A stretch of DNA of 32,889 nt. Origin: an uncultured Clostridia bacterium. GTDB taxonomy: Bacteria > Bacillota > Clostridia > UBA1381. This document shows positions 718-11,907 of the stretch, in pieces (within the stretch, counting starts at the first letter, position 1; every line of letters starts with the position of its first letter). The notes below the pieces were generated by a model that was not told the origin of the DNA, searched no databases, and was given only the letters and a program-made list of their open reading frames with translations. The position numbers and the translations under genes are program-made. The stretch is from assembly GCA_904420525.1 (NCBI GenBank), contig CAJFVT010000068.1:1-32889 (forward strand), given 5' to 3'.

Positions 718-3700
718 ATGGATGAAAGATCTAAGGTGACAGATAAAGTGTCCTGGGAAGGAGCTGAATGGATCAGTTCTCCGGGCGACACTATAAATGC
801 GGACGCGCTTGTAAAATATTCTATAGAAGCTGATGTGAGTATTGTCTCCGGGAGCGTTATCGGCATAGCGATAGCGGCAAGGAATAAGGATAATTATGTT
901 TTAGCGGAGATAGATATGGCCGGGCGGCTCGTGCGTTTTTTTGAATACAGCGACAACGCTTGGACTGATGGAGTTCCGGCCGTGACCGTTCTGGGAAAAA
1001 TGCGCGGATATGGGATAGGAGCGGATGCAGGCGCGGAGCGAGATATGCATCATATCGTGCTGTCTGTAGACAGGGCAAGGGTGACACTAAAGCTTAACGG
1101 CATATGTGTTGCAGATGATGACGTGATACCACAAGATCAGGTTTTCATGCCAAGGAAGCAGTGTATGCTGAATTTCGGTTTTAAGCAGGTGGAGGGGTGC
1201 GCCGTATATGACAGCATAACAGTACGGGCTGGTGAAAGGAATATTCTTTTATCTGATGATTTTGCGGATGACAGCGGTGTGCTTTCATGTCTCGGCAAGG
1301 TCACGGACAACGCGCTTGCTGTAGAGAATGAATTCAGACTGGTGAATGCAGTGCCGTCTGTGAACGTGCGCAGGTTTTTCAGGATCGATAGGGCGGTGAG
1401 GGATGCTAGGCTGTATGCTTCGGCCATGGGCTTTTATGAGGCGTATATAAACGGATCAAAGGTAAATGACACATTTTATGATCCCGGTTTTACCGATTAC
1501 CGGAAACGAATGTATTATCAGGAATTTGACGTTACCGGTCTGCTGAAGAACGGTGCGAACGTCATAGGCGCAACTGTAGCAAAGGGCTATTATACAGGGT
1601 ATATAGGCTATAATGCGCAGCCTATGGTATACGGCAGGAAGAACGCATTTATCTCAAAGCTTGTGATCGTATACGAGGACGGCATGGAAGAGACAATTGT
1701 TAGTGACGAAAAGTGGCAGTTTACATGCAAGGGTCCTGTAATGAATGCCGACTATCTGCAGGGAGAGGACTATGATGCCCGGCTGTGCATAGACTGGGCG
1801 GACGCGGATGACAGGCGCTGGGGGCAATGCGGTATAGTGCCGTGGCCGTGTGAGCCGGTGCCGACCAATGGTGTGCTTGAAAGAGAAAGCTTTGTTTTTG
1901 AAGCGCAGAGAGGTCCCGGTGCGGGTATTGAGCGCGTGTTGACGCCTGTATCAATTCATGAGCAGCCAAAAGGACATTTTATATATGATCTCGGCCAGAA
2001 CATGGTAGGGACTGTGCGGATAAGGCTGAACGGCATGAGAGGAGAGTCGATAAAGCTCAGATATGGTGAGATGTGCCGTAAAAGCGGGGAGCTTTATACA
2101 GCAAATCTCAGAAATGCTGCCAACACAGATACTTACACGCTGAGAGGAAGAGGAACTGAAGAGTTTATCCCGTCATTTACCTCTCACGGTTTCAGGTATA
2201 TAGAGATAACAGGGAATGGATATGCTCTGACACGTGAAAAGCATGATCTGATGATAAAAAGCATTGAAGGTCTTGTTATCACAAACGTAAGGGAAATGAC
2301 AGGCAGCTTTGAATGTTCTGATCCGCTTCTGAACAAGCTGCAAAAGAATATAGAATGGGGACAGCGCGGAAATTCACTGCTTGTATTTACCGACTGCCCG
2401 CAGCGCAATGAGCGTATGGGTTGGACGGGCGATGTCCAGGTTTTTGCCAAAACAGCCGCGTATAACATGAATGTAAAGGCTTTCATGAACAAATGGCTCA
2501 CAGATATGCGTGACGCGCAGCTTATGTATAATTTAAACGGCGCAGTCCCGGACACTGCGCCTCTGGGCGGTGACAACCGTAAAACAGGAGGCTGCGCCGG
2601 CTGGGGCGATGCAGCTGTGATAGTCCCGTGGGAAATGTACATAGCTTACGGTGATGAGACAGTGCTTCGAGATAATTATGAAATGATGAAGGCGTGGGTC
2701 GATTATCAGAGCAGGGAGGACAGGCAAAATCATGGTATGCGCACTGTTGACGGTGAGGAGGTGCCTGAATGTTCGGATCTCGCATCGATACCATATATAC
2801 AGATACAGCAGTCACGCGGTGATCACCTTGCGTTTGATGAGTCAACACCTTTTATACTCAGCGCCACAGCGTATGCTGCGCGCGCGGCCGAGCTGATGTA
2901 TAAAACAGCTGAGATACTCGACAGATATGAGGATGCGGAAAAATACCGCGCACGCTGTGAAAAGGTCAGAAGAGCATTCCGGGAAGCGTGGGTACAGGAG
3001 GACGGATCTCTGGCATATTGGGGAGAGATGAGCAAGTCCTGCGGGGATGTGAACGGAAATGTTATAAACAGGACGAGATATTGCAATTCTCCCGGCTCGG
3101 CTGCGAGACCCAGCCAGACGGCATATGCGCTTGCAATAGATTTTGGTCTGATACCGGAAGATAAGCTTATGCGCGCAGCAGAATGCTTTCAGCAGTCAAT
3201 AGACGACAGAAACGGGTTGCTTTCAGTAGGCTTTCTGGGGATATCGCATCTGGCTCCGGCGCTCACGAAAGCCAGACTTACAGAAACGGCATATGCGCTT
3301 TTGGAGCAGAAGGAGGATCCAAGCTGGCTCTACAGTGTGAGGAACGGCGCAACGACGATCTGGGAACGATGGGATTCATACATAGCTGAAACGGACGCTT
3401 TCGGAGCTGTGTCGATGAATTCATTTAATCATTATGCATACGGAGCAATCGGCGAGTGGATGTTCGGGACCATACTGGGTATAAACTCAAGCGAGAAAAA
3501 AGGCGAGACCGGTTATAGGAAGATAATACTGAAGCCAACGCCCGGCGGAAGCCTGAGCTTTGCTAAGGGAAGTTATATATGTCCTTACGGGATCATAAAA
3601 TCGGAATGGAGGATTGAAAACGGTATATTCAGCTATAATTGCACGATACCTGAAAATACGACTGCTGTATTGTATTTGCCCTTGATCGGAAATGCAGAAT

Positions 3701-3792
3701 ATTCAGGGCAAACTGAGCCGGTCAGGATGGAAAAATACAGAGCAGTTTATGAGCTGGACAGCGGAAGCTATAGCTTCAAAGCAATACTTTAG
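718..3792 (+). CDS. Glycoside hydrolase family 78 alpha-L-rhamnosidase with N-terminal LamG-like region
   Basis: 1024 aa; GH78 signatures 'DCPQRNERMGWTGDVQVFAKTAAYNMNVKAFMNKWLTDMRDAQ' and 'GATTIWERWDS...SFNHYAYGAIGEWMF'. No signal peptide visible. Confidence 0.93.
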   Translation: MDERSKVTDKVSWEGAEWISSPGDTINADALVKYSIEADVSIVSGSVIGIAIAARNKDNYVLAEIDMAGRLVRFFEYSDNAWTDGVPAVTVLGKMRGYGIGADAGAERDMHHIVLSVDRARVTLKLNGICVADDDVIPQDQVFMPRKQCMLNFGFKQVEGCAVYDSITVRAGERNILLSDDFADDSGVLSCLGKVTDNALAVENEFRLVNAVPSVNVRRFFRIDRAVRDARLYASAMGFYEAYINGSKVNDTFYDPGFTDYRKRMYYQEFDVTGLLKNGANVIGATVAKGYYTGYIGYNAQPMVYGRKNAFISKLVIVYEDGMEETIVSDEKWQFTCKGPVMNADYLQGEDYDARLCIDWADADDRRWGQCGIVPWPCEPVPTNGVLERESFVFEAQRGPGAGIERVLTPVSIHEQPKGHFIYDLGQNMVGTVRIRLNGMRGESIKLRYGEMCRKSGELYTANLRNAANTDTYTLRGRGTEEFIPSFTSHGFRYIEITGNGYALTREKHDLMIKSIEGLVITNVREMTGSFECSDPLLNKLQKNIEWGQRGNSLLVFTDCPQRNERMGWTGDVQVFAKTAAYNMNVKAFMNKWLTDMRDAQLMYNLNGAVPDTAPLGGDNRKTGGCAGWGDAAVIVPWEMYIAYGDETVLRDNYEMMKAWVDYQSREDRQNHGMRTVDGEEVPECSDLASIPYIQIQQSRGDHLAFDESTPFILSATAYAARAAELMYKTAEILDRYEDAEKYRARCEKVRRAFREAWVQEDGSLAYWGEMSKSCGDVNGNVINRTRYCNSPGSAARPSQTAYALAIDFGLIPEDKLMRAAECFQQSIDDRNGLLSVGFLGISHLAPALTKARLTETAYALLEQKEDPSWLYSVRNGATTIWERWDSYIAETDAFGAVSMNSFNHYAYGAIGEWMFGTILGINSSEKKGETGYRKIILKPTPGGSLSFAKGSYICPYGIIKSEWRIENGIFSYNCTIPENTTAVLYLPLIGNAEYSGQTEPVRMEKYRAVYELDSGSYSFKAIL

Positions 3793-3878: not shown

Positions 3879-4607
3879 TCAGTAGTTTATAGTTATTACA
3901 AGAGCTTCTTTGTCAAATGTGACTGCGCCCTCATAGTATGTATCGTGAGCCGCGTCATCCCATTTGAGATTATCTATTCCGCCTACGATGTATGCCAGCT
4001 TGCGAATAGGTACGTATACCGTATCATTTACCATCACCGGACAAGAGAAATTAAATCCGGCGCCGCCTCCGCTGCCGACCTGATAGACCTCTGTTTCCCC
4101 GTTCGGCGCGATCACCTCAATGAGCGGGAACTGACGGTTATAGCTGCCGGTCTGACCGTAGATATAATTGTCGGTTTCGTTTGTAACGTGACTTTTTAGC
4201 CACGTTGGACCGTGTTCCTGATCCTCGTAATAAGGGAAATCATATTTGATCTGATCTGCATATTTGCTCTTGTCAACATCGTATATGACCGTATATCCGA
4301 GCTTTTCATATACCTCGCGCAGAGGGATATAATAGCTGTCGGTATCGGTAGTCTGGTTAGTAGGGACCTTTATTATATCGACAGCATAGCTTCTCCCGTT
4401 TATGATAAGCTCCCCGTCCGGCAGGTCAAGCCCGTCCACGGCCGCCATAACGACAGTTGCGCAGATGGCTGTGCAGGTCAATGTGACGGCAGATACAGCA
4501 GCTGCGATGCGTGATATGCGTCCCTGACTTGAGCGTATTTTTGAAAATCGCTTCTGCAGCGTTTTTGCGCTGCTGCTCATCTTTGTGGTATATAATTTTT
4601 CCAGCAT
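3879..4607 (-). CDS. Membrane-anchored stalk-domain (copper amine oxidase N-terminal-like) protein; likely sensor partner of the M56 peptidase
   Basis: 'LIINGRSYAVDIIKV...YYIPLREVYEKLGYTVIYD' and 'VMVNDTVYVPIRKLAYIVGG' resemble stalk-domain repeats; one TM segment near the N-terminus. N-terminal 'MSSSAKTLQKRFSKIRSSQGRISR' resembles the post-peptidase region of BlaR1-like proteins. Confidence 0.75.
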   Translation of the reverse strand: MLEKLYTTKMSSSAKTLQKRFSKIRSSQGRISRIAAAVSAVTLTCTAICATVVMAAVDGLDLPDGELIINGRSYAVDIIKVPTNQTTDTDSYYIPLREVYEKLGYTVIYDVDKSKYADQIKYDFPYYEDQEHGPTWLKSHVTNETDNYIYGQTGSYNRQFPLIEVIAPNGETEVYQVGSGGGAGFNFSCPVMVNDTVYVPIRKLAYIVGGIDNLKWDDAAHDTYYEGAVTFDKEALVITINY

Positions 4608-4623
4608 CTCTATTCATCTCCTT

Positions 4624-5463
4624 TCATTCCGCAAGATACAGAATGGTTTTCATATAGAGCTTTTGCTCCTCATCAGACATATTTTTTGTTACAGACATAT
4701 CGCATGAAACCTCGCATGCTTCACTTATATTGGCGCAAAGCAGATAACATAAAGGATTGAACCAGTGCAGTGCATTTACAAATATAGAAAGCCATTTTAT
4801 AAACAGATCATTCCTTTTGTAATGAGTCAATTCATGCAGAAACACCATGTACATCTTTTCATCGGATATTTCCCTGCATGGGATATATACGATAGGGAAC
4901 AGGATTCCGGAAAGCATAGGTGAATTCACATCCTCTGCCATCCTGATCCGGATATTGCGTTTTATGCCCAGCTCCCTTTTTGCCTGCTCAAGTATAGGAC
5001 TGTATTCGATCCGCACAGAGTACGTTCTTTTGCGCGAAAGATAGATCATATAGCTCAGCAGCACCACAAGTAGGAAAACACATACTCCCGCAAACCATAT
5101 ATAGGCGATCAGATCAACCAGCCTTATGCTGTGTGAGGGACTTACGATTATCTCTCTTGAGGCTATAGGTGTGATTTCTGCTGTTATGGGACTGTCCGGA
5201 TCTGTATCTGATACCTGATCGGCCGCGATCTGTGTCTGCTGTATGACCGTAAGCTTTTGCGCTTCTTTTTTAGGGATAATCTTGTATACCGGGATAATCA
5301 TCGCAAGCAGCACAGCTACCCATACATAATACTGCCACTTAGCAGGAAATTTTTTTGATGTTACCGGCTTTAGACACAAGAGCACTGCTGTTATAGCCGA
5401 ACCAAACAGACTCAGAACGATGATTGTCCTGAAAAGCTCGTACATGATATCACTCCAGTTCAA
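4624..5463 (-). CDS. M56 family (BlaR1-like) metallopeptidase
   Basis: HELTH zinc motif (VFLHELTHYKRNDLFIKWLSIFVNALHWFNPL), N-terminal TM helices, overlaps a BlaI-family gene. Confidence 0.9.
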   Translation of the reverse strand: MNWSDIMYELFRTIIVLSLFGSAITAVLLCLKPVTSKKFPAKWQYYVWVAVLLAMIIPVYKIIPKKEAQKLTVIQQTQIAADQVSDTDPDSPITAEITPIASREIIVSPSHSIRLVDLIAYIWFAGVCVFLLVVLLSYMIYLSRKRTYSVRIEYSPILEQAKRELGIKRNIRIRMAEDVNSPMLSGILFPIVYIPCREISDEKMYMVFLHELTHYKRNDLFIKWLSIFVNALHWFNPLCYLLCANISEACEVSCDMSVTKNMSDEEQKLYMKTILYLAE

Positions 5464-5818
5464 ACATTTTTTTCAGCTCCGACATATCCTCTTTTGAAAG
5501 CTTCTTGTTTTCATAGAGTGCCGCGACAAGATTTTTGACCGAGCCGTTATACAGCTTTGAAAGGAAGCTCTGCGTTTCGCTCATATCGTAATCAGACTGC
5601 CTGAGCAGAGGATAATACAGATTTGTTTTTCCTTTTTTATCGCAGGAAACTATACCCTTTTTTAAAAGACGCTGCAGAAAAGTAGAAACGGTAGAAGCGG
5701 ACCAGTCATTGCCGAGGCCATTTACCACTTCAGCTACAGTCATCTTTGAGTTTGATCTCCAAAGCAGCTTCATTATCTCATATTCGGAATCTGTGATAGT
5801 CTGTTTCGTGTTTGACAT
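5450..5818 (-). CDS. BlaI/MecI/CopY family transcriptional regulator
   Basis: 'ITDSEYEIMKLLWRSNSKMTVAEVVNGLGNDWSASTVSTFLQRLLKKGIVS' winged-helix signature; SD-like AAAGGGAGG upstream on the minus strand. Confidence 0.95.
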   Translation of the reverse strand: MSNTKQTITDSEYEIMKLLWRSNSKMTVAEVVNGLGNDWSASTVSTFLQRLLKKGIVSCDKKGKTNLYYPLLRQSDYDMSETQSFLSKLYNGSVKNLVAALYENKKLSKEDMSELKKMFELE

Positions 5819-6173: not shown

Positions 6174-7664
6174 TTATTGTGTTTTTGCGATAATGCTCTT
6201 CCATTTTTCATAAGCGCTGTCCCATGCTTCACTGTCCTGCGGCTGATATTCGGCAATATCAAAGCTGTTCTTAACGATCCTGCGTCCCTCGTTAAGGTCT
6301 TTGATCGCTCCCATCGCGATACCCTGAACTATGATATTTCCGATGCTTGTTGCCTCAACAGGGCCCGCGTTTACTACTCTCTTTGTAGCGTTAGCGGTAA
6401 ACTGACATATCATCTTGTCCTTTATGCCTCCGCCGACTATGTTGACAACATTATATTTATTGCCCGTGACATCCTCCATGCCCTCTATCGTGTAGCGGTA
6501 ACGGAATGCCAGGCTTTCTGCGATGCACCTGATTATCTCGCCCTTTGTTTCAGGTACCTTTTGTCCTGTCTTTTCGCAGTATTCTCTTATACGCTTAGGC
6601 ATATTTCCGGGAGTCTGGAATGCGGCGTAATCAGGATCTATGAGGCTTGCAAAGGGTTCCGCAGCCCGTGCCTGCTGCTCAAGCTCATCGAATGAGAGAA
6701 GAGTTCCTTCTCTGTCCCACTGACGGCGGCTTTCCTGAATGAGCCATAATCCCATGATATTCTTAAGGAAACGGATGGTCTTATCAACGCCGCCCTCATT
6801 CGTAAAGTTGTATTTCATGGCCTCATCAGAGGTGTTGGGCTTATCGAGCTCAACGCCCATAAGCGACCATGTACCCGATGATATGTAGATGAAATCCTTT
6901 TTGTCGGCTACCGGCACTGAAGCTACAGCAGAGCCTGTGTCGTGAGAAGCGACTGCGATGATCGGCACCTCAGCGATCCCAAGCTCCTCGGCCAGCTCAG
7001 GCTTTAACGTTCCAACCACCTCACCTGGGTATATAACATCAGTAAGCATATCCGTTGGTATACCCATCTTCTTTAGCATATCATAAGACCATTCATGCTT
7101 TTCCGAATTGAACATCTGTGCAGTTGAGGCTATTGTGTACTCAGTTTTTTTAACTCCGGTAAGGAAGAAATTGAAAAGGTCAGGCATGAACAGAAGTGTT
7201 TTTGCATTTTCAAGGGTCACATCACCGCTGAGCTTCGCTGAAAGCAGCTGGAACACTGTATTGAACCAGTTAAAGGCGATACCGGTCTCTTTGAATATAT
7301 CCTCCTTCGGGACGAGCTTGAACGCCTCATCATACATTCCCTCTGTTCTGGTATCGCGATAGTGATATGGATTGCCCAGAAGCTTATCATCCTTGTCGAG
7401 AAGACCGTAGTCAACTCCCCAAGTATCGATACCGATGCAGTCTATATCTCTGTCACCGGAATTTGCGCACTTTAAAATGCCCTGCTTGATCTCAAAGAAC
7501 AAGCGAAGCACGTCCCAGTGAAGGCATCCGTTTATGTTTACAGGATCGTTTGAGAAACGGTGCTTTTCCTCAAGCGTAAGTTTTTCGCCATCGAATACGG
7601 CGAGAATAGCACGACCCGATGACGCGCCGAAATCGAACGCTAAGAATTTATATGTTTTTGCCAT
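6174..7664 (-). CDS. rhaB: Rhamnulokinase (FGGY family)
   Basis: 'FLAFDFGASSGRAILAVFDG', 'GIDTWGVDYGLLD', 'SHDTGSAVASVP', 'VNIVGGGIKDKMICQFTANAT' typical of RhaB. Confidence 0.93.
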   Translation of the reverse strand: MAKTYKFLAFDFGASSGRAILAVFDGEKLTLEEKHRFSNDPVNINGCLHWDVLRLFFEIKQGILKCANSGDRDIDCIGIDTWGVDYGLLDKDDKLLGNPYHYRDTRTEGMYDEAFKLVPKEDIFKETGIAFNWFNTVFQLLSAKLSGDVTLENAKTLLFMPDLFNFFLTGVKKTEYTIASTAQMFNSEKHEWSYDMLKKMGIPTDMLTDVIYPGEVVGTLKPELAEELGIAEVPIIAVASHDTGSAVASVPVADKKDFIYISSGTWSLMGVELDKPNTSDEAMKYNFTNEGGVDKTIRFLKNIMGLWLIQESRRQWDREGTLLSFDELEQQARAAEPFASLIDPDYAAFQTPGNMPKRIREYCEKTGQKVPETKGEIIRCIAESLAFRYRYTIEGMEDVTGNKYNVVNIVGGGIKDKMICQFTANATKRVVNAGPVEATSIGNIIVQGIAMGAIKDLNEGRRIVKNSFDIAEYQPQDSEAWDSAYEKWKSIIAKTQ

Positions 7665-7860: not shown

Positions 7861-7889
7861 TTGTTTTAAGCCTATTTTTATGATATAAT
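7861..7889 (+). promoter_or_regulatory. Putative promoter of the DUF1538 gene
   Basis: TTGTTT (7861-7866), 17-nt spacer, TATAAT (7884-7889). Confidence 0.55.
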
Positions 7890-7946: not shown

Positions 7947-9485
7947 ATGAATCAAAAGTTAAAGGAAAAAACACTTGAATCACTCTCCGCCGTATTACCT
8001 ATTACAGCTATAGTTTTAATATTAAGCATTTTTTTAGTGCCGATAGATATCGGCAGGATAGCTATGTTTTTTGTTGGGGCGTTTATGTTGATAATTGGTA
8101 TGGGAATGTTTCAGCTCGGCAGCGAGATGGCAATGTGTCCCATAGGTGAAGGGATAGGTGTTCAAACGTCAAAGTCGCGTTATATCTTTTCAACACTGAT
8201 AATAAGCTTTATTATGGGCGTGCTTATAACTGTTGCGGAGCCTGATCTGCAGGTGCTGTCAAATCAGGTCCCGGCTATTCCAAATATTGTATTGATCATG
8301 ACAGTCGCAATAGGAGTGGGTATATTCATGGCTGCTGCTGTGCTCAGGATCATAAAAAAGATCAATCTTTCAAATCTTTTGATAATATTGTACATAGTTC
8401 TGCTGTTGCTGTCGTTTTTTATACCCAGAGAATTTTTAGGGGTAGCTTTCGATTCCGGAGGTGTAACGACCGGACCTATAACTGTGCCGTTTATAATGGC
8501 GATGGGATTGGGACTTTCAAGAAACCGCAGTGATAAGGATGCCTCCAGTGACAGCTTCGGTCTGGTAGCGCTTTCGAGCGTAGGACCGATCCTTGCGGTC
8601 ATGCTGCTGGGATTTATATTTGATCCGACAGATGCCGTGTATTCAGGAGCGGAAGCATTTTCAGTAGAAACAACGCGCGATGTCGCGCGTGCCTTTGCGG
8701 TTGAGATACCGGAATACATAAAGGAGGTAGCGATATCGCTTTTGCCTATCATGGTCATGTTTGTTATTTTCCAGCTTATAAGCCGGAGATATAAGCGCAG
8801 ACAGAGGCGGCGTATCATAGTGGGCTTTGTATATAACTATCTCGGATTGGTTCTGTTTTTATGCGGCGTAAATGTCGGCTTTGCGCCGGTCGGAACGATG
8901 CTGGGCAGCGAGCTGGCAGGGGCATCGCACAGCTGGCTGCTCGTTCCGATAGGTATGCTGATAGGCTACTTTATAGTTAAGGCAGAGCCGGCGATACAGA
9001 TACTTAACAGACAAGTACAGGATGTTACTGACGGAACTATCCCGGCAAGATCTATGAATAAGTGCCTGTCGATAGGCGTATCCGTCAGCGTAGGGCTTGC
9101 AATGCTGAGGATACTTACAGGGATACCGATCGAATATATAATAATTCCGGGATATATAATCGCTCTTGTTATGTCCAAGCTCGTACCGAAAATATTTATA
9201 GGTATAGCGTTTGACTCCGGCGGCGTTGCCAGCGGTCCTATGACCTCAACGTTCCTTTTGCCGCTGTGTATAGGAGCGTGTGAAAGCGCAGGCGGGAATA
9301 TCATGACGGATGCTTTCGGCGTTGTGGCGCTGGTTGCTCTCACGCCTCTCATAGCAATACAGATCATGGGAATTCAGTACAAGCTCAAGCTGAACAGGAT
9401 CAACAGGATCGTAAGCTCCGGCAATATGATCACTGATGACAGCGATGATATCATAGAGCTAGAGGAGGATCAAAATTATGAGTGA
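7947..9485 (+). CDS. DUF1538 domain-containing multi-TM protein (internal duplication)
   Basis: 512 aa, highly hydrophobic; repeated motif FDSGGVTTGPITVPF (near 8448) and FDSGGVASGPMTSTF (near 9210) about 254 aa apart, as expected for duplicated DUF1538. Confidence 0.85.
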   Translation: MNQKLKEKTLESLSAVLPITAIVLILSIFLVPIDIGRIAMFFVGAFMLIIGMGMFQLGSEMAMCPIGEGIGVQTSKSRYIFSTLIISFIMGVLITVAEPDLQVLSNQVPAIPNIVLIMTVAIGVGIFMAAAVLRIIKKINLSNLLIILYIVLLLLSFFIPREFLGVAFDSGGVTTGPITVPFIMAMGLGLSRNRSDKDASSDSFGLVALSSVGPILAVMLLGFIFDPTDAVYSGAEAFSVETTRDVARAFAVEIPEYIKEVAISLLPIMVMFVIFQLISRRYKRRQRRRIIVGFVYNYLGLVLFLCGVNVGFAPVGTMLGSELAGASHSWLLVPIGMLIGYFIVKAEPAIQILNRQVQDVTDGTIPARSMNKCLSIGVSVSVGLAMLRILTGIPIEYIIIPGYIIALVMSKLVPKIFIGIAFDSGGVASGPMTSTFLLPLCIGACESAGGNIMTDAFGVVALVALTPLIAIQIMGIQYKLKLNRINRIVSSGNMITDDSDDIIELEEDQNYE

Positions 9486-10173
9486 AGCGGGAAATAATCT
9501 ATCATTGAGGATATTGATGCTTGTGGCGCCGCCAAAGCTTGCAAACAAGGCCACAAAGCTGTTTGGAAAAGCCGATGTTCCGCTGCATTACACGCTCAAT
9601 GCAATGGGCACGGCATCGAGTGAAACTATGGATATGCTGGGGCTGGGCACTCCTGACAGACGGATACTGATAAGTATCATGACGAGGCGGTACGCCGACA
9701 GGCTCATGTGTAAAATACGGAGTGATCTTAAGTTCGGAGCGCCGGGAACAGGCGTCGCATTTACGATACCTATAACTGGTGCAAGCAATCATGCAATAAA
9801 AATGCTCAAGGATTTAGATGAAAACAATATTTCACTGCCTAAGGGAAAGGAAGCGATAAGGATGTCAGATATAAACCGTGTGCTTATTGCAGCTATAGTA
9901 AATCAAGGCTGCAGCGAGGATGTAATGGATGCAGCGCGCACTGCCGGCGCCGGCGGCGGAACTGTTCTGCACAGCCGCAGCATTGCCGGTGCAGAGGTGC
10001 TGAGTCTATGGGGACTGGGCGCGCAGGAAGAAAAGGAGATAGTATTGATCGCAGCTGATTTAGAAAGCAAGCTTGATATAATGAGCTCAATAAGTGAGAA
10101 ATGCGGTATGCATAGTGACGCAAAGGGTATGGTCATATCGCTTCCTATAGAGAGCGCTATAGGTTTGGCGTGA
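9478..10173 (+). CDS. Two-domain PII-like signalling protein
   Basis: C-terminal half 'NRVLIAAIVNQGCSEDVMDAARTAGAGGGTVLHSRSI...EKEIVLIAADLESKLDIMSSISEKCGMHSDAKGMVISLPIESAIGL' follows the PII pattern; the N-terminal half 'LRILMLVAPPKLANKATKLFGKADVPLHY...' looks like a second, diverged ferredoxin-like PII unit. 8-bp overlap with the DUF1538 gene. Confidence 0.75.
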   Translation: MSEAGNNLSLRILMLVAPPKLANKATKLFGKADVPLHYTLNAMGTASSETMDMLGLGTPDRRILISIMTRRYADRLMCKIRSDLKFGAPGTGVAFTIPITGASNHAIKMLKDLDENNISLPKGKEAIRMSDINRVLIAAIVNQGCSEDVMDAARTAGAGGGTVLHSRSIAGAEVLSLWGLGAQEEKEIVLIAADLESKLDIMSSISEKCGMHSDAKGMVISLPIESAIGLA

Positions 10174-10187
10174 TCAGCAGCAAAAAG

Positions 10188-10220
10188 CAAGGCAGTACAG
10201 GTATTGACCGTACTGCCTTG
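10188..10220. terminator. Bidirectional rho-independent terminator between convergent genes
   Basis: CAAGGCAGTAC...GTACTGCCTTG (11-bp arms); + side TTCTCTTTCT, minus side GCTTTTTGC. Confidence 0.75.
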
Positions 10221-10231
10221 TTCTCTTTCTA

Positions 10232-10873
10232 TTAGTCTTCCTCTAAAACCGCGGTCAGCGTTACGGAGCCGTCTGTTTTGATCTTTTCACCGGAATTTAT
10301 CTCGAATTCGTATGAGTGAGAATCGATCGTGGAAAGATTGATGCTAGCTGCAACATTGTTTGCTATATCATAGACCAGGAGCCTGCCGCTTCCTTCGGCT
10401 CTGTATCTGCCGCTGTCAATATCGGCAGGGCATTTATGCTCACCCTCGCTGAGGGTTGTGGAACTGCCGTCTGTTTTTTGTGCTACCGATGAAAGGTTGT
10501 CTGAATATGTCTGCTTTTCGCTGAGCTGTGATTTCAGATCCGAATTAAGCTGAGAAGCATTTTCGATGTCTGAATTATAGCTGTTGAGCTGTTCTGTAAG
10601 AGAATCCACTTCTGTCATTAGAGTTCTGTTTTCATCTATTACAGTGTCATATTCTGATATCTGAGCCTGCAGCTCTTCCTTTTCTGAATTCAGCTCAGAT
10701 ATTTGCGAATTCATATCGCTGCGCTCGCCGGCCGCGATCAGGGCAGCCTTTGAATTCAGACCTATCCTGTTATGGAAGGCAAGAAGGATAACGCCTATTA
10801 TAACACTGATTATAATAGGTATCATGGTTAAATAAAAGCTTTTATTGGATCGCATATCTGTACCTCTCCTCAA
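10232..10873 (-). CDS. Membrane-anchored coiled-coil protein with C-terminal beta-rich domain
   Basis: N-terminal TM helix, long SSLTEQLNSYNSD/LKSQLSE coiled coil, C-terminal 'CPADIDSGRYRAEGSGRLLVYD...FEINSGEKIKTDGSVTLTAVLE'. Confidence 0.7.
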   Translation of the reverse strand: MRRGTDMRSNKSFYLTMIPIIISVIIGVILLAFHNRIGLNSKAALIAAGERSDMNSQISELNSEKEELQAQISEYDTVIDENRTLMTEVDSLTEQLNSYNSDIENASQLNSDLKSQLSEKQTYSDNLSSVAQKTDGSSTTLSEGEHKCPADIDSGRYRAEGSGRLLVYDIANNVAASINLSTIDSHSYEFEINSGEKIKTDGSVTLTAVLEED

Positions 10874-11907
10874 TTGATCGGTGAAAATTTAGTGGCGCTG
10901 TCGAGCCTTATTTTGTCTCCGCTTTCAAGTATGGCCTCAAGAGGTGTTGAACCCAGCCTTGAATTGTATTTTGATCTGCCTTCACTTGAGGCTGATACAA
11001 AGGTCCCTGTGCCTGTAATGGAGAATTTGCCGGGAGGTATATCCTCTCCTACGGTGTATTGTCCGGCTGAAAGTGTTATTATCGCTCCGGATTGGCTCTC
11101 GATCTGGGCGTTAAGATCATTTATCTGCTGCTGCAGCTCAGAATTTTCACGGTTAAGGCTGTCAAGCTCGTTTTTCTTTTCTTCGATCTGTGATCTCAGC
11201 GATGCTCTGGAGTTATCAAAGTCGGCAATGCTCTCGGAAAGCTCTTTCTTTTCTTCCGAGTCGCTGCGCAATGTGTTGACCTCCTCATTCAGCGAATCAA
11301 GCTGCTCCTTCAACGCGGTGTAGCTTTCTTCTGAACGCAGCGCCTCTACTGCAGAGTTCAGCATATTCTCGTCCTTGGTCATGTTAAGCGAGCAGATAAA
11401 TGCCGCAGCGATAATACAAACAGAAACGACTCCGCTTATGCAGCAGGCGATGATTGTTCTGCTCTTGCCGGAAAGGGCATAGCCGCTCTCATGTATCGAG
11501 TCATCCTGATCTGATGTATCCGCATCTTCTCCGCTGTCCCTTTTTATAAGCTGTATAAGCCTTACGGCGATAGAACGCGGAGTTCTGCTTTTTGGATCAT
11601 CCTGCGCAGGTGCATTTTCCTCCTCGGAGTACGGGATATTTTTATAGTAATCTATGATATCATCAAGTTCCTCTGCCTTAGCCGGGTCAATGCTGTCTGC
11701 GTATTCATCATATCCGGCCGCAGTATCATCGGTGTCCGGTATTGCCGTTTCAGGATCGGGTCCGGCTGCTGTGCTGTTCTCAGCCTCCGCGGTAATATCT
11801 TCAGATATTGTATCGGCCTCCAGTCTCTCAGCCTGCGCTGCAGCTGCGTTTGCAGCAGCGCTTGACACATCTTCGGTATGCGGTTTTTTGCTATCATCAT
11901 TTTTCAT
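10870..11907 (-). CDS. Membrane-anchored coiled-coil protein with acidic N-terminal cytoplasmic-like region and C-terminal beta-rich domain (paralog of adjacent gene)
   Basis: Acidic low-complexity N-terminus, TM (TIIACCISGVVSVCIIAAAFICSL), coiled coil, C-terminal 'LSAGQYTVGEDIPPGKFSITGTGTFVSASS...LESGDKIRLDSATKFSPIN'. 4-bp overlap with the downstream gene. Confidence 0.7.
   Translation of the reverse strand: MKNDDSKKPHTEDVSSAAANAAAAQAERLEADTISEDITAEAENSTAAGPDPETAIPDTDDTAAGYDEYADSIDPAKAEELDDIIDYYKNIPYSEEENAPAQDDPKSRTPRSIAVRLIQLIKRDSGEDADTSDQDDSIHESGYALSGKSRTIIACCISGVVSVCIIAAAFICSLNMTKDENMLNSAVEALRSEESYTALKEQLDSLNEEVNTLRSDSEEKKELSESIADFDNSRASLRSQIEEKKNELDSLNRENSELQQQINDLNAQIESQSGAIITLSAGQYTVGEDIPPGKFSITGTGTFVSASSEGRSKYNSRLGSTPLEAILESGDKIRLDSATKFSPIN

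Follow-up and report, generated by a model that had tools for sequence, protein, structure and literature searches.

A divergent, often tandem PII protein accompanies DUF1538 membrane proteins and probably regulates a UmpAB-like ion exchanger

Why should the gene for a membrane protein of the DUF1538 family overlap the gene for a protein that resembles two PII units joined in one chain, and does the second product control the first? The pair is encoded in a stretch of 32,889 nucleotides (the window, as we call the whole of the DNA analysed) that is part of a 2.5-Mb draft genome, in 232 contigs, of an uncultured member of the Clostridia; the nearest relatives to be found are metagenome assemblies of Clostridia, several of them from ruminant gut samples. 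The features of the locus are collected in Table 1. Both open reading frames, their strand and their lengths are as given in the preliminary description, as is their overlap of 8 bases (ATGAGTGA), and a Shine-Dalgarno-like sequence (AGAGGAGG) stands shortly 5' of the start of the tandem PII gene. The same description had furnished the pair with its own promoter and a strong terminator. The TATAAT element and the hairpin do exist, but the promoter is unremarkable, having gone unreported by a consensus promoter scan because its first hexamer, TTGTTT, is poor, and the hairpin (in the plus-strand reading a perfect 11-bp stem with an 11-nt loop and a T-rich tail) is bidirectional and common to the gene pair and a convergent gene at 10232–10873.

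Table 1. Features of the DUF1538–PII locus, in window coordinates.
Feature	Position	Strand	Remarks
Possible promoter, TTGTTT-17 bp-TATAAT	7861..7889	+	read by eye; TATAAT at 7884–7889
Fused DUF1538 (UmpA/UmpB-like) membrane protein, two homologous halves	7947..9485	+	512 aa; Pfam, NCBIfam, AlphaFold2
DUF1538 half 1	7950..8642	+	residues 2–232; near-invariant acids E98, D169
DUF1538 half 2	8697..9404	+	residues 251–486; near-invariant acids E347, D423
Tandem PII protein	9478..10173	+	231 aa; start codon within the end of the DUF1538 gene
PII unit N	9493..9789	+	residues 6–104; unit model i-E 1.5e-25; assigned to the old duplicate lineage
PII unit C	9865..10167	+	residues 130–230; unit model i-E 5.8e-34; assigned as ortholog of the single PII
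Terminator-like hairpin, bidirectional	10188..10220	.	reported by the scan on the minus strand

The remainder of the window holds several recognisable genes. An alpha-L-rhamnosidase (1024 aa) and an FGGY carbohydrate kinase, probably a rhamnulokinase, are encoded within 718–3792 and 6174–7664, which suggests rhamnose use, and the kinase gene is preceded by a perfect sigma-70 consensus promoter (TTGACA-17-TATAAT, 7755–7727, minus strand). On the minus strand at 3879–5818 a BlaI/MecI-type repressor gene overlaps one for a BlaR1-type M56 peptidase, and after these comes a gene for a protein with a stretch resembling a copper amine oxidase N-terminal domain. Two further overlapping minus-strand genes (10232–11907) encode coiled-coil, probably membrane-anchored proteins of no convincing Pfam family.

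The 512-aa protein comprises two DUF1538 domains (Pfam PF07556, E = 7.5e-138 in two stretches; 457 bits against a cut-off of 22.6), and its motifs FDSGGVTTGPIT and FDSGGVASGPMT put D169 and D423 exactly 254 residues apart, in keeping with the two motif copies noticed earlier at a spacing of about 254 aa. The acids mirror each other between the halves, E98 with E347 and D169 with D423, and are conserved over 111 sequences at 94% (E98), 95% (D169), 100% (E347) and 99% (D423). The AlphaFold2 model (pLDDT 70, pTM 0.73) is all-helical, with helices broken near E98 and past D169; at this model quality Foldseek returned no confident fold match (best E 0.056, TM < 0.2), and a single-sequence search for solved relatives of the window proteins gave none that was meaningful. 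DUF1538 had been presented as an uncharacterised family, a view that the literature corrects: in Halomonas zhaodongensis the DUF1538 pair UmpAB, reported as a heterodimer, catalyses Na+(Li+,K+)/H+ antiport with a K0.5 of 0.26–0.46 mM and a pH optimum of 9.0, and UmpAB alone confers salt tolerance and antiport on the antiporter-deficient E. coli KNabc (PMC5484666). This activity, on Na+, K+ and Li+, is the sole measured DUF1538 activity that we found. Each half of the window protein matches the NCBIfam models of UmpA and UmpB at 1e-30 to 1e-21. The whole protein is homologous only and not an equivalog, scoring 193 bits for UmpA and 155 bits for UmpB against cut-offs of 490 and 500; since these scores are far under the cut-offs, the ion that we infer for it may differ from that of UmpAB.

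The 231-aa protein taken alone gives a single weak Pfam match to P-II (E = 0.16, residues 136–228), which at 12.7 bits falls under the family cut-off. Its relatives are more informative. A model of the PII unit, built from open reading frames next to DUF1538 loci in about 110 genomes and from plasmid records, matches both halves with the values given in Table 1, which rules out a false repeat as the origin of the second unit, and the P-II family (PF00543) is matched at E ≤ 1 by 37 of 37 single-unit and 39 of 42 tandem relatives, one example reaching 38.5 bits against a cut-off of 25. Through the relatives' model and their PF00543 matches, we assign the protein to the P-II family. By profile search the single-unit relatives reach solved P-II structures (best 9p1x, 2.4e-8), with archaeal GlnK at about 1e-4 and SbtB at only E = 0.1. 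Among Pfam families P-II gives the leading match, no better one being offered by PstA, CutA or SbtB, and CutA is absent among the Pfam matches listed for single and tandem relatives. AlphaFold2, run with six sequences, predicts two ferredoxin-like units (pLDDT 71, pTM 0.72), with a short helical stretch where a long T-loop would stand. The secondary structure of both halves is of the beta-alpha-beta-beta-alpha-beta type; presence of this fold in each half had been named beforehand as the point on which the idea of two PII-type units in one chain would stand or fall, and the idea is borne out by the prediction as well as by the relatives' model. The whole-chain Foldseek matches are two-unit ferredoxin-like chains at large rmsd and not PII specifically; among them are BMC-T shell proteins, which also carry two alpha/beta units per chain, a structural resemblance of a general two-unit kind, at high rmsd and with unrelated function. 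As the tandem chain has two units, it cannot be a plain one-unit homotrimer.

These PII units differ from GlnB and GlnK in the parts that matter for signaling. The canonical Tyr51 uridylylation motif (a PROSITE-type pattern) occurs in 0 of 215 units, and GDGK likewise in 0 of 215, while the loop is about 5 residues shorter than that of E. coli GlnB, so that the remark that a recognisable long T-loop with Tyr51 is missing from the window protein extends to its relatives. The ATP-site residues of GlnB are mostly replaced (Lys90 by I, Arg101 by G, Arg103 by A, N or C), which makes ATP in its classical binding mode an improbable ligand. With the uridylylation motif and the long T-loop absent and the ATP-site residues for the larger part exchanged, the proteins fall outside the canonical GlnB/GlnK group. 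A near-invariant lysine stands, by HMM alignment, at the position of Lys58 of GlnB, a 2-oxoglutarate-contacting residue, and is shifted by one in a MAFFT alignment. The sequence GRGTGIHE...IEPEKE is kept in single units and in the C units of lineages with split DUF1538 genes, where the GIHE loop motif shows the His at 91–100% and the Glu at 95–100%. The N units of the fused lineage have lost the His-Glu and the Ile of IEPEKE and keep the B-loop G.GIAF; in the window's own C unit the loop is degenerate (RSIAGAE) and the His is lost.

How general the association is can be judged from 124 DUF1538 operons (one contig being represented twice, as L003 and L010), of which 120 are followed directly by one or more PII genes. 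In three of the remaining four (L075, L079, L153) the contig breaks off, and the fourth, L125, belongs to a genome (G313) that carries a tandem PII on another contig. There (L174:3092–5597) the tandem PII gene lies away from DUF1538 and is divergent from a gene for a 455-aa membrane-like protein without a Pfam or NCBIfam match. Across 399 genomes of the window's phylum, 137 have both proteins, 2 DUF1538 only, 3 the PII only and 257 neither, that is, DUF1538 in 139 and the DUF1538-type PII (at E ≤ 1e-10) in 140 of the 399. The Fisher p-value for this co-occurrence, 3e-101, and a second linkage p-value, 5e-17, both ignore relatedness and thus show only that chance is no explanation. Within the order, a strong tandem PII profile match was obtained in 14 of 14 genomes with DUF1538 against 0 of 81 others, among which there are three weak P-II matches only. 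No other neighbour recurs at about 92 loci, the commonest upstream or downstream family being present in 4 of them, and nitrogen genes do not recur beside these operons either; a chance neighbourhood is ruled out by the co-occurrence together with this lack of any other recurring neighbour. The association extends to plasmids: in Alphaproteobacteria (Methylocystis, Chelativorans) these carry a split DUF1538 pair with one PII, and in Clostridia a fused DUF1538 with a 222–225-aa PII annotated as a P-II family nitrogen regulator. A search that left out the tandem PII alignment found no viral carriers. The linkage, the general absence of which had been named beforehand as a refutation of the proposed pair, is accordingly real and almost obligate, though linkage alone could reflect joint regulation or cassette transfer.

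The architectures of the two partners are matched as well. DUF1538 is fused in 68 of the 124 operons, encoded by two genes in 48 and alone in 8. All 66 fused cases with a PII neighbour have two or more PII units (64 a tandem PII, one a tandem plus one, one as two genes), against 25 of the 48 split pairs, where one PII unit is found in 23, two genes in 9 and a tandem in 16. In a tree of DUF1538 halves, the fusion amounts to one change and the PII architecture to about 12, so the association of fused DUF1538 with two PII units rests largely on one ancestral event. The tree of PII units is divided in two with a support of 0.83: one side takes 81 of 82 C units, 10 of 10 second genes and 30 of 30 singles, and the other 82 of 82 N units and 10 of 10 first genes, the sole exception being L170. 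This two-sided tree indicates that the PII duplication is old, occurred once as far as the data show, and kept its gene order. Mean identity is 40% among C units against 29% among N units. On these sequence grounds the C unit is orthologous to the single PII, and the N unit is one old duplicate with its T-loop residues lost.

The subfamily has another partner as well, a membrane protein about 440 aa long that adjoins a single PII of the DUF1538 type in five genomes (G441, G462, G412, G524, G553); one of the five copies is truncated where the stretch analysed ends. The three that were scanned are CitMHS proteins (E about 1e-90) with ArsB similarity, for which MamN is the best NCBIfam match and NhaB similarity is found in two of the three; the remaining two CitMHS/ArsB-type proteins were recognised by their sequence. 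The PII at these loci (L171:3158-5092, L172:3194-5058, L173:1828-3705, L179:1-1809, L180:1480-3203) is a single, short-loop unit that has lost the His-Glu (RGTAVKLLLGISIEPEKE), and together the genes look like a second PII–transporter pair. That the PII pairs with two unrelated families of ion transporters argues that its job is transport regulation. At another locus (L175:220-3350), a single PII of the subfamily comes after the gene for an NAD(P) transhydrogenase beta subunit, the product of which, at 837 aa with three PNTB stretches, exceeds the normal length.

On the basis of these data, we consider it fairly probable that the DUF1538 protein of the pair is a secondary transporter of the UmpAB kind, most likely exchanging Na+ or K+ for H+, and is regulated by a dedicated PII that docks on it. 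The strict joint inheritance of DUF1538 and PII across the phylum makes it very likely that the sensor controls the transporter, and the activity of UmpAB in E. coli, where no cognate PII gene accompanied it, fits a regulator and not a needed subunit. The two subunits of a UmpAB-type heterodimer would be fused into one DUF1538 chain that exchanges a monovalent cation, presumably Na+ or K+, for protons. The PII would dock on the cytoplasmic face, presumably by direct contact, and would switch the transporter on a cytoplasmic signal in the manner of GlnK–AmtB or SbtB–SbtA, the gating, its direction and the ligand being what we infer. The C unit would be the old sensor, with a T-loop sequence kept in most relatives, and the N unit a duplicate keeping the B-loop; as PII ligands bind at the interfaces of adjacent units, the two probably share the work within one oligomer, which three tandem chains would supply with six PII units. 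Known PII targets can, according to a review, be trimers, and UmpAB was reported as a heterodimer, which implies that DUF1538 may form a higher oligomer or be docked in a different mode. A wider claim is possible, of which we are doubtful enough to offer it as tentative: that the PII belongs to a subfamily for proton-coupled ion transporters of unrelated families (DUF1538/UmpAB, CitMHS/ArsB), has a ligand other than ATP/2-oxoglutarate and, in the fused lineage, is an obligate two-part chain with specialised N and C units on a transporter that is pseudo-dimeric and not trimeric.

The conserved GIHE of single units and split-lineage C units bears on the alternative of a CutA- or PII-NG-like PII that senses a metal or a small anion, with the loop His-Glu binding the metal, and of a DUF1538 protein that moves something other than Na+/K+ into or out of the cell, for instance ammonium, an organic anion or a divalent metal. 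Passages of PMC7726332 describe PII-NG as encoded with CzcABC metal/proton antiporters and proposed as metal sensors, and the UmpA/UmpB scores under the equivalog cut-offs leave room for a different substrate. However, the His-Glu is lost in the fused-lineage N units and the His in the window's C unit, CutA is missing from the Pfam matches listed, and measured DUF1538 activity is confined to Na+, K+ and Li+, so that on balance we regard this alternative as unlikely. A sensor of nitrogen or carbon status in the style of GlnK, reading ATP/ADP and 2-oxoglutarate on behalf of a DUF1538 carrier of a nitrogen-related solute, would suit a P-II family member and has a textbook model in GlnK–AmtB as well as the near-invariant lysine that the HMM alignment, though not the second alignment with its shift by one, places at Lys58. 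The replaced Lys90, Arg101 and Arg103, the lack of GDGK and of the uridylylation motif in all 215 units and the absence of recurring nitrogen genes next door speak against it, and we find it less likely still.

Finally, the genes might merely be transcribed and transferred together, with the PII acting on other targets and not directly on the transporter, and a transferable cassette would equally account for genes lying side by side with a scattered distribution (14 of the 95 genomes in the order). Yet the association has survived fusion and duplication of the genes and, in G313, their unlinking; copy number is matched, the association spans phyla, and an ion transporter of an unrelated family is a further partner of the PII. 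This makes mere co-transfer very improbable, the least likely of the readings considered, and regulation of a UmpAB-like exchanger by its own PII the one that we prefer.

Among known systems the nearest on the transporter side is Halomonas UmpAB, which shares the family of both halves and the subunit pairing; the window protein differs in being fused into one chain and in scoring far under the equivalog cut-offs. PII is not mentioned for UmpAB (PMC5484666); the cloned umpAB fragment has four open reading frames, none of them a PII, and umpB is the last listed. Known PII-gated transporters include AmtB, SbtA, Nrt and Urt (PMC10710835), and according to this review transporters under PII control can function as trimers. 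The likeness to GlnK–AmtB is that of a PII in an operon with a transporter, GlnK being a known PII plug of a membrane channel, whereas here the transporter is unrelated and the PII has a shorter T-loop, lacks the Tyr51 motif and the canonical ATP site, and is often doubled. SbtB–SbtA offers a PII-like protein dedicated to one secondary transporter, with modified ligand chemistry, but the sequence match to SbtB is weak (E 0.1) and the complex is trimer on trimer in bicarbonate uptake. PII-NG is a PII subgroup linked to a proton-coupled cation exporter, CzcABC (PMC7726332, citing Sant'Anna 2009), but that transporter is of another family, and in the passages concerned PII-NG is described as having arisen from GlnB/GlnK and no tandem form is mentioned.

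Both protein families are known already, and the PII is labelled as such in public annotation; no publication joining DUF1538 with PII was found in the open-access literature. What is new with respect to GlnK–AmtB and SbtB–SbtA is, on our best reading, the transporter partner and the PII architecture. Proton/cation antiporters keep pH and Na+/K+ constant, and to our knowledge the tie between their activity and metabolism is poorly known. If the proposed regulation is true, a PII sensor would act on antiporters encoded in 139 of the 399 genomes sampled from a large phylum, about a third. It would then link antiport to metabolism, add a new kind of target to the trimeric transporters from which PII control is known, and offer a first direct way into DUF1538 regulation. 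As PII proteins bind small cytoplasmic signals, the ligand would reveal what these bacteria monitor when adjusting ion exchange, and the tandem protein, with its two differently worn halves, would be a natural experiment that could tell the sensing PII loops from the acting ones.
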